The translations under genes were made by a program, and so were the position numbers. Of a stretch of DNA of 64,000 bases, positions 52,911 through 55,595 are shown piece by piece (the first letter of the stretch is position 1; every line of letters begins with the position of its first letter). The stretch comes from Ciceribacter sp. L1K22 (lineage in GTDB: Bacteria; Pseudomonadota; Alphaproteobacteria; Rhizobiales; Rhizobiaceae), in contig NZ_JAGFPK010000001.1 in NCBI RefSeq assembly GCF_017599385.1, forward strand, positions 3,084,483 through 3,148,482, written 5' to 3'. Under the pieces are notes generated by a model that worked only from the letters and a program-made list of their open reading frames with translations, was not told the origin of the DNA and made no database searches.

Positions 52911-53267
52911 TCAGCTGCCCCTGTAGGTGGAATAGCCGTAGGGCGACAACAGCAGCGGCACGTGATAGTGCGCCGTCGTGTCGGAAATGCCGAAGCGGAT
53001 CGGGATAACGTCGAGGAACGGAGGTTCTGTGAGAGGAATACCGAGGTTCTTCAGGTATTCGCCGGCGTGGAAGATCAGTTCGTATTGCCCGACCGAAAAT
53101 TCGTCTCCCGACAGGATGGGACCGCCGTCGACGCGCCCGTCGTCGTTTGTAAAAACCGTCCGGATCAGCTCGGGCGCTTCGCCGGCCATGCGCACCAACT
53201 GAATCCGCAGCCCCTTCGCTGGCTTGCCGAGGGCGGTGTCTAGGACGTGGGTGGTGAGGCCGGTCAT
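52911..53267 (-). CDS. uraH: 5-hydroxyisourate hydrolase
   Basis: The 118-aa transthyretin-like protein has [21 protein letters not shown] (with His and Arg of the active site), FHAGEYLKN-type middle and the diagnostic C-terminal tetrapeptide YRGS. It hydrolyses 5-hydroxyisourate, the PuuD product, to OHCU. It overlaps the allA stop by 4 nt (ATGA). Its presence in the same window as puuD and uraD completes the three-step urate-to-allantoin route. Confidence 0.96.
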
Positions 53268-53773
53268 AAGCTGGGCTCCAGAATCGTGAACGGGGCATCG
53301 AAGAAGAACTCCTCGAGATTGTGACCCGGTCCGTCGCGATCGACAATGAGGAAATCGCTCACCTCGCCAACCGCGATCAGCGGATGATGCCAGGTATTGC
53401 GACGATAATTCACCCCCTGGTCGCCGCGCGCCAGAAACGCCTGTGGCTTACCTGGCTTGCCGCTCTCATCTGGCGAAACGGCAACGAGATATGGCCTGCC
53501 GTTGAGCGGCGAAAAGCTCTGGCTGCCGAGAGGATGGCGCTCCATCATGCCGATCTCGTAGGGGAAAGATCGCGGCTGCCCGCGGAAGATATTGATGATC
53601 ACCCGGGCGCCGTCACCCACGACGTCGGGAGTAGCAAGGGCATGGAAACGTTCCGTCGTGCCACCATTGATCAGCCGCATGGTGTCCGGCCGCGCTTCTA
53701 TCACGTCTCCGAACGGAGCGAAGGCCTCCGCCGTTAGCGGACGGATGATGAGGGTCTGGAGCAAAGGGGTCAT
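53264..53773 (-). CDS. allA: Ureidoglycolate lyase
   Basis: The 169-aa protein has the AllA cupin-like fold, beginning [20 protein letters not shown] with [12 protein letters not shown], then [15 protein letters not shown] and WHHPLIA. It splits ureidoglycolate into glyoxylate and urea, the last step of allantoate breakdown. I chose the ATG at 53773, which overlaps the end of the hepT frame by 4 nt; the 53863 start extends into that gene. It overlaps uraH downstream by 4 nt. Confidence 0.92.
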
Positions 53774-54135
53774 TCTCCCTGGATATTCGGATGTCGGAGC
53801 TGGTGGATCTGCCGGACCAGTCTTGGAAGGTCCGACTGCACCGTATCCCAAATGATACGCCAATCCAGTCGGTCGTATTGGTGAACCACGAGATTGCGCA
53901 GGCCCCTGATCTTGGCCCAGGCGATCTCCGGTTGCTCTGACGCGATATCCGGAAACAGCGTCTGGATACGAACTGCGGCGGCGGCAATCAGCACGAACGT
54001 CATGGCAACGGCGCGCTAACGCAAGAGATCCGACTCGAACGCCTCGAAGCTTACGCCATCAAGGAATCCGATGGCCTCAAGTGCCGCCTCCTCCATATCA
54101 ATGAGATTATCGATCAGGCGCTCTGCCGGGGTCAT
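53770..54135 (-). pseudogene. hepT: hepT-type HEPN toxin gene, interrupted by an in-frame amber codon
   Basis: The frame encodes a normal-length (~121-codon) HEPN protein: MTPAERLIDNLIDMEEAALE at the N-terminus and [16 protein letters not shown], with the catalytic R-X4-6-H motif, near the C-terminus. Codon 40 is TAG at 54016-54018 (in DLLR-stop-RAVAMTF). A single C-to-T change from CAG would produce it. No ribosome site precedes the ATG at 54003, so the downstream part is probably untranslated. The antitoxin start overlaps by 4 nt. The gene's end overlaps allA by 4 nt. Confidence 0.8.
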
Positions 54136-54422
54136 ATGGCTCTCGCCTCGGCAAGGATCCGGTCGCGCGTCCGCGCTTTCAGACCGCCGGCCGTGACAAT
54201 GTCCACCCTGCAAGGCAACAGGCCTTCCATCTCTGCCTGCAGTCCTCCGAGATCGAAGAGCGTCATGCCCGGCAGCGCGTCAACCAAAATATCGAGATCG
54301 CTGTCCGGACCGTCCTCACCCCGCGCGACAGAGCCGAACACACGCGGGTTCGCTGCCTTGTGACGCGCCGTCGCATCGCGGATAGCCTGCCTGTTTTTCT
54401 CCAGCACTTCGGACGGTCTCAT
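54132..54422 (-). CDS. mntA: MNT-domain nucleotidyltransferase antitoxin (MntA type)
   Basis: The 96-aa protein has the minimal nucleotidyltransferase motif FGSVARGEDGPDSDLDILVD (GS-X10-DxD). MntA neutralises HepT by adding AMP to a tyrosine of the toxin. AAGGAGG lies 6 nt before the ATG at 54422, so it should be well translated. The toxin partner gene immediately downstream is interrupted by an amber codon, leaving this antitoxin without an evident full-length partner. A 4-nt overlap joins the pair. Confidence 0.9.
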   Translation of the reverse strand: MRPSEVLEKNRQAIRDATARHKAANPRVFGSVARGEDGPDSDLDILVDALPGMTLFDLGGLQAEMEGLLPCRVDIVTAGGLKARTRDRILAEARAI

Positions 54423-54492
54423 GTCTCGCCTCCTTGACCGCAATTATAGGACAAACGCGAAGCGCGAGAAAGCGCCGGACTTCCGCACCCCT

Positions 54493-54554: not shown

Positions 54555-55595
54555 TCAGGCAGCAGACTTTGCGTAGTCTGCGGTCGGAACTTCCGCGATG
54601 GTCTTGAGGACCTGGGAAGCGATCGCGTAGGGGTCGCCCTGGGAGTTCGGACGGCGGTCTTCGAGGTAGCCCTTGTAGCCGTTGTTGACGAACGAGTGCG
54701 GAACGCGGATCGAGGCGCCGCGGTCGGCAACGCCGTAGGAGAACTTGTTCCACGGAGCCGTCTCGTGCTTGCCGGTCAGGCGCATGTGATTGTCCGGACC
54801 GTAGACGTCGATGTGCTCTTTCCAGTTCTTGGCGAAAGCGGCCATGAGTGCTTCGAAGTACTCCTTGCCGCCGGTCTCGCGCATGAATGCGGTGGAGAAG
54901 TTGCAGTGCATGCCCGAGCCGTTCCAGTCGGTGTCGCCGAGCGGCTTGCAATGGAATTCGACGTCGATGCCGTACTTTTCGCAGAGGCGGAGCAGCAAGT
55001 AGCGTGCGATCCAGATCTGGTCCGCGGCCTTCTTGGAACCCTTGCCGAACACCTGGAATTCCCACTGGCCCTTGGCCACTTCTGCGTTGATGCCTTCGTG
55101 ATTGATGCCGGCTTCAAGGCAGAGGTCGAGGTGCTCTTCAACGATCTCGCGGGCGATCGAGCCGACGTTCTTGTAGCCGACGCCGGTGTAATACGGGCCC
55201 TGCGGAGCCGGGTAGCCCTGCTCGGGGAAGCCGAGCGGACGGCCGTTCTCGTAGAAGAAGTATTCCTGTTCGAAGCCGAACCATGCGCCTTCATCGTCAA
55301 GGATCGTCGCGCGGGTGTTCGATGCGTGCGGCGTGACACCGTCCGGCATCATGACTTCGCACATCACGAGCACGCCATTGGTGCGCGCCGGATCGGGATA
55401 GACGGCGACCGGCTTCAAGACGCAGTCCGACGAGTGGCCTTCGGCCTGCATCGTCGACGAACCGTCGAAGCCCCACAGCGGCAGCTGCTCCAGGGTCGGG
55501 AAGCTGTCGAATTCCTTGATCTGCGTCTTGCCACGCAGGTTCGCTACCGGCTTGTAGCCATCGAGCCAGATGTACTCGAGCTTGTACTTGGTCAT
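54555..55595 (-). CDS. glnII: Glutamine synthetase type II (GSII)
   Basis: The 346-aa enzyme is the eukaryote-like GSII found in rhizobia. It has WGFDGSSTMQAEG, GQWEFQV, NGSGMHCNFSTAFMRETGG and the C-terminal DRRPNSQGDPYAIA; GSII lacks the adenylylation Tyr loop of GSI. It joins ammonia to glutamate when nitrogen is scarce. It is transcribed away from gstI. A sigma-54 promoter and an NtrC-like site lie in the 399-bp region between them. Confidence 0.97.
   Translation of the reverse strand: MTKYKLEYIWLDGYKPVANLRGKTQIKEFDSFPTLEQLPLWGFDGSSTMQAEGHSSDCVLKPVAVYPDPARTNGVLVMCEVMMPDGVTPHASNTRATILDDEGAWFGFEQEYFFYENGRPLGFPEQGYPAPQGPYYTGVGYKNVGSIAREIVEEHLDLCLEAGINHEGINAEVAKGQWEFQVFGKGSKKAADQIWIARYLLLRLCEKYGIDVEFHCKPLGDTDWNGSGMHCNFSTAFMRETGGKEYFEALMAAFAKNWKEHIDVYGPDNHMRLTGKHETAPWNKFSYGVADRGASIRVPHSFVNNGYKGYLEDRRPNSQGDPYAIASQVLKTIAEVPTADYAKSAA

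Follow-up and report, generated by a model that had tools for sequence, protein, structure and literature searches.

An MNT–HEPN toxin–antitoxin pair upstream of allA in a Rhizobiaceae genome, with an amber codon in the toxin gene that probably marks a recent loss

The window, a stretch of 64,000 nt from the genome of a soil-type Rhizobiaceae bacterium (hereafter the window genome), contains a two-gene toxin–antitoxin pair at a chromosomal site upstream of allA. The genes follow one another on the minus strand in the order glutamine synthetase (presumably glnII), MNT, HEPN, allA and uraH (Table 1). The MNT antitoxin gene is open over its 96 codons, has a good ribosome site, and encodes the GSX10DXD motif as GSVARGEDGPDSDLD. 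MNT was also matched by a candidate group of PADLOC, PDC-S09, and a profile search with it reached PDB entry 1wot (E 8e-24). One further match to PF01909 (NTP_transf_2) was present in the genome, within a 965-aa frame. The ATG of the HEPN toxin frame (54135-54133) overlaps the MNT stop codon, and the frame extends to a terminal TGA (53772-53770), open apart from a single TAG at codon 40. Read with X at this stop, the frame scored 76.7 bits against a PF01934 cut-off of 23.5 bits. At E 0.001 the genome contained no other PF01934 match, and HEPN matched nothing in PADLOC at the same threshold. A preliminary description of the locus had listed an intact antitoxin frame behind a proper ribosome site, a TAG inside the toxin gene, and normal HEPN sequence on both sides of it, and these observations held. 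The RX4HXY motif is kept; since it lies after the stop, it is carried by the frame and not by the normal product. With TAG at codon 40, the locus is thus a pair with a broken toxin rather than a working system.

Table 1. Features of the MNT–HEPN locus and its flanks, in window coordinates
Feature	Coordinates	Strand	Evidence or remark
Glutamine synthetase	54555..55595	-	Pfam PF00120 and PF03951; upstream flank of the slot
Shine–Dalgarno sequence AAGGAGG	54429..54435	-	Read directly; 6 nt ahead of the MNT ATG
MNT antitoxin (MntA-like minimal nucleotidyltransferase), 96 aa, intact, GSX10DXD	54132..54422	-	Pfam PF01909, 41.5 bits; PADLOC PDC-S09, 109.1 bits
HEPN toxin frame (HepT-like), 121 codons and stop, broken at codon 40	53770..54135	-	Pfam PF01934, 76.7 bits, read with X
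In-frame TAG, codon 40 of HEPN	54016..54018	-	Sequence; Gln column in relatives; opens helix 37-60 in a relative's model
Residual ORF of 77 aa starting at an in-frame ATG (codon 45); would lack helix 1	53770..54003	-	No clear Shine–Dalgarno sequence
RX4HXY motif RNLVVHQY, codons 80-87 (R80, H85, Y87), downstream of TAG	53875..53898	-	Sequence
AGGGAG in the final toxin codons (QGE-stop), probable ribosome site of allA	53775..53780	-	Sequence
allA (ureidoglycolate lyase), intact	53264..53773	-	Pfam PF04115, 204.5 bits
uraH (HIUase/transthyretin family), intact, downstream of allA	52911..53267	-	Pfam PF00576, 116.2 bits

AlphaFold2 was run on the intact HEPN of a relative, L032, which shares 88% identity with the window HEPN frame (alignment of 26 rows). 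The resulting model (pLDDT 90.6) contains long helices at residues 3-24, 37-60, and 92-114. In this model, helix 37-60 has only just begun at codon 40, so the normal product would comprise helix 1 and little more. The best PDB matches of the model in Foldseek were HepT structures of Shewanella (6m6u, 7bxo and 5yep; E 0.005-0.03, TM-score 0.59-0.69 on the query), and none of its PDB matches passed E 0.001. A phmmer search of PDB with the interrupted HEPN yielded nothing at E 0.1; a profile of HEPN relatives reached 5yep at E 1e-6.

The pair is similar to the type VII system HepT/MntA of Shewanella oneidensis (SO_3166/SO_3165) in joining a PF01934 HEPN with RX4HXY to an adjacent PF01909 MNT with GSX10DXD, and the predicted fold is similar by Foldseek to the three structures named above. 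It differs in its broken toxin and in the scores of the NCBIfam equivalog models HepT_toxin and MntA_antitoxin, which were 39.4 and 33 bits, both under the cut-off of 60. In the Shewanella system, it is established that AMPylation of a HEPN tyrosine by MNT silences the RNase (PMC7641770), and by analogy MNT would AMPylate the HEPN tyrosine and silence the RNase in an intact pair of the kind described here. The HEPN–MNT pair of Legionella pneumophila, compared with the window pair through its published description, is likewise a two-gene module but has an intact toxin; helix 2 of its MNT and the loop that follows contact HEPN (PMC11586414). A 2009 catalogue of MNT–HEPN two-gene modules describes a well-conserved MNT, a more diverged HEPN and an uneven distribution, and also discusses solo and inactivated members of such systems; the portion of it available to us does not mention the allA slot (PMC2701414). 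No published account of an MNT–HEPN slot at allA was found in the open-licence literature searched.

We assessed the slot in relatives using 60 genomes drawn from the genus, including the window genome, of which 58 carried allA at E 1e-20. From each of the 58, a stretch of at most 2.4 kb ahead of allA was taken and scanned with MNT and HEPN profiles; three of these stretches stop early at a contig end. HEPN was present in the slot in 41 genomes and absent from 17. The preliminary description had suggested comparing relatives at the interrupted codon: the column is Gln in all 40 other carriers and TAG in none of them. This Gln is one of five invariant columns, conserved in 26 of 26 aligned relatives, including six from other genera at 41-49% identity. 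No other in-frame nonsense codon was found in the slot HEPN copies of the 41 carriers, and the only other broken frame has a frameshift at codons 27/28 (G027). Outside the slot, two distant HEPN matches (26-28% identity; G018 and G051) also contain a stop. Further strains of the window species were not found among the genomes searched, and the stop is known from one genome.

Apart from its stop, the window HEPN evolves like the copies of its relatives, which argues that the stop is young. Its mean pairwise dN/dS was 0.071, compared to 0.065-0.098 for 11 close relatives (12 close carriers compared), and it had three private residues besides the stop (unseen in 15 relatives), with 0 to 13 in other rows. 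A toxin that decayed long ago was ruled out on these two measures. The tip dS of the window HEPN, obtained as a three-point estimate over 274 nonsynonymous sites, had a median of 0.57 (0.30-1.14, 55 pairs), and by our arithmetic a neutral frame would collect about 150 changes over the whole tip. The stop would roughly fall in a small last part of the branch, about a tenth or less, as an order of magnitude; the dating is rough because dS is near saturation. The dN/dS values alone cannot separate a young loss from an error or functional readthrough, as all of these leave the gene otherwise well kept.

Taking these results together with the comparisons below, we consider that a nonsense mutation at an invariant Gln codon very recently inactivated the toxin gene of a long-standing type VII-like (HepT/MntA) pair, which occupies a conserved chromosomal slot, and left the antitoxin intact (probability roughly 0.84). 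Recent decay of the toxin, one of two options offered in the preliminary description, agrees with a stop that is private to the window genome and with the lack of excess amino-acid change elsewhere in the frame. Mechanistically, a nonsense mutation would have struck codon 40 of the toxin while MNT stayed intact, and the resulting 39-residue product would do nothing. Losing the toxin, unlike losing the antitoxin, would cost nothing, so such mutations could drift or spread, and the MNT gene and last toxin codons, with the likely ribosome site of allA, would persist for now. Strain polymorphism is a possible source of the stop. The flanks of the pair in the window genome look more diverged than MNT–HEPN itself, and horizontal arrival of the pair was considered for that reason; the nearest neighbours of the window genome in the HEPN tree had supports of 82-88 only, and per-segment identities fit vertical descent of the pair.

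Both motifs are kept in 32 of the 41 carriers, with lesions in the other nine. In addition to the TAG of the window genome and the frameshift of G027, the toxin lesions comprise replacement of the catalytic Arg by Ser (G452) or Gly (G030) and of the catalytic His by Arg (L199 in G029 and L208 in G033). MNT is intact in five of these six genomes with a disabled toxin and interrupted by an assembly gap in the sixth (G029). In G019, G020 and G458, the MNT match is limited to the first 29-34 residues, and the HEPN keeps R-X4-H with His in place of the tyrosine. As G029/G033 (98) and G019/G020/G458 (100) form supported groups on the HEPN tree, the lesions amount to at least six events, five of them disabling the toxin; each, including the frameshift, is known from one assembly or from sister assemblies. 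In Shewanella, AMPylation takes place at the corresponding tyrosine, and replacing this residue keeps toxicity and weakens neutralisation (PMC7641770). Among four MNT-truncated copies (L045 added), HEPN dN/dS was 0.19-0.62, based on small counts, and higher than among close intact carriers.

Some genomes without HEPN retain traces at the slot. G002, G463 and G031 (L185, L193 and L195) have some 25-30 bases like the HEPN tail before allA, as if the pair had been lost and left a scar. Glutamine synthetase and allA of G002 are separated by a MarR-family gene and a MatE-family transporter gene; ORFs resembling these occur in G463 and G449, of which G449 is without the HEPN-like tail. In other genera, the pair adjoins allA in 11 of 12 loci (10 of 11 genomes), and several carry two tandem pairs, although these loci are not a random sample, having been chosen as the best matches to the window HEPN (15 of 394 genomes at E 1e-20, window genome included). 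Two different MNT–HEPN pairs stand in tandem upstream of allA at L047:1890-3363 and also in L050, L051 and L054. At L039:2520-2612, a fragment like early allA precedes MNT and an intact allA lies downstream, as if the pair had been inserted together with part of allA.

The recurrence of toxin lesions bears on two other explanations. One is that the stop is real but adaptive, MNT or the pair transcript having another role, for example at allA. Five separate disabling events in six genomes, the intact MNT wherever it could be read in them, and the position of the pair beside allA in other genera would all fit such an explanation, but the second role is conjecture and we regard adaptive disarming as unlikely. 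The other is a sequencing or assembly error, in which case the living strain would have a whole toxin. Only one codon would need to be wrong, and elsewhere the frame has been preserved as well as those of relatives; on the other hand, marker genes put the completeness of the assembly, which has 26 contigs, at 99.97%, the TAG site is outside any homopolymer, and independent toxin lesions occur in five other genomes of the genus, so that a broken toxin is not unusual at this slot. An error is therefore quite improbable.

The second option of the preliminary description, real amber readthrough or a suppressor, fared poorly. Here a near-cognate or suppressor tRNA would yield a low amount of full-length toxin, keeping the dose low, which agrees with the absence of relaxation in the frame. 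Near-cognate tRNAs can insert Gln at UAG, and this would restore the residue of the relatives. However, the stop is not conserved at the slot, and ARAGORN found no CTA anticodon among the 46 readable anticodons of 47 tRNA matches in the genome, a list not quite complete since it lacks Ile-GAT and Ala-TGC, which usually sit in rRNA operons. In the remaining match, which is degenerate and tRNA-like (L110, 32.8 bits), ARAGORN reads no three-base anticodon. Release factor 1 is present (prfA, 507.5 bits, over its cut-off). TAG appears to serve as an uncommon but ordinary stop, as it ends four of the 58 likely genes of the window (chosen by length and third-position GC, not homology), one of which (53321-53737) runs antisense to allA and is probably not a gene. 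Amber suppression was rejected on the tRNA and release factor results, and no sign of a recoding system, such as reassignment of TAG with loss of release factor 1, was seen in the genome when tRNAs, release factor 1 and TAG usage were considered. We conclude that functional readthrough is very unlikely. Finally, a split toxin, in which translation would restart at the in-frame codon-45 ATG, 12 nt after the TAG, to give a working 77-residue fragment with RX4HXY, is most improbable, as no Shine–Dalgarno sequence is evident and the fragment would be missing both helix 1 (3-24) and the initial residues of helix 37-60 of the predicted model, and the HEPN dimer interface in Legionella is formed mainly by helices 1 and 2 and the Y-loop (PMC11586414).

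The relation of the toxin to allA was reassessed. The preliminary description had the toxin end overlapping allA by ATGA; this tetranucleotide is indeed present at 53773-53770, where a candidate allA ATG (53773-53771) overlaps the toxin TGA, but the start that it implies is doubtful. The ATG is only 1 nt past AGGGAG, whereas a TTG at 53764-53762 is 10 nt past it, making the TTG the likely start of allA. An in-frame ATG overlapping the toxin stop is present in just 12 of the 41 carriers, compared to 39 in which an in-frame TTG, GTG or ATG follows the stop at 5-9 nt (exceptions, G014 and G461), mostly preceded by an AGGGAG-like site in the last toxin codons. Thus, allA probably has its own start signal, and the case for a connection through ATGA is weak. 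The HEPN C-terminus, where this site is located, reads QGE or EGE in 40 of 41 copies, and the HEPN stop codon is TGA in 22 carriers, TAA in 11 and TAG in eight. The allA of the window genome is itself unusually divergent, with 11 private residues compared to 0-4 in 13 relatives and a mean dN/dS of 0.139 compared to 0.079-0.114 in the other 11 close relatives. Being recent, the toxin stop cannot account for this divergence.

The HEPN copies at the slot fall into types, defined from the HEPN tree, that are about 30% identical and occur intermixed on the flanking-gene trees, with eight type changes on glnII (18 of 25 rows typed) and six on allA (21 of 28 rows typed). Grouping all nine type-2 carriers was rejected on the flanking-gene trees (p 1e-93 and 0.0014). 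For example, G027 and G003 share 97% identity in glnII and 91-92% in allA, compared to 40-54% over most of HEPN. Between G467 (L181) and G419 (L175), identity is 95% in the intergenic region and 94-99% over MNT codons 1-48, falls to 52-54% from MNT codon 49, directly past DXD, and remains at 46-62% across the rest of the pair, HEPN included. Among the 14 differing-type pairs profiled, an equally sharp cut inside MNT was seen for G467 only (against both G419 and G014). These sequence comparisons indicate that alleles about 30% identical are exchanged repeatedly at the slot, once with a breakpoint inside MNT after the catalytic motif. Going by the Legionella contacts described above, the partner-binding elements of MNT would fall in the exchanged half.

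The single stop is ordinary, most likely a recent loss of the toxin; the slot, with its exchange and repeated disarming, is the more interesting lead. We tentatively suggest, at somewhat less than even odds, that in Rhizobiaceae the slot may be a site of MNT–HEPN allele exchange, where close relatives swap divergent toxins, sometimes with only the partner-binding half of MNT and its catalytic half kept in place, toxins are repeatedly disarmed by stop, frameshift or catalytic substitution, and the tyrosine that MNT would AMPylate is lost from the toxin where MNT is cut short. If this is true, the slot would be a natural experiment on toxin–antitoxin specificity and decay. Its fixed position lets one toxin–antitoxin family be followed in dozens of relatives as it is exchanged, duplicated in tandem, disarmed and lost, and the G467/G419 pair, whose natural break in MNT falls between the catalytic half and what is presumed to be the partner half, makes the location of cognate specificity directly testable.
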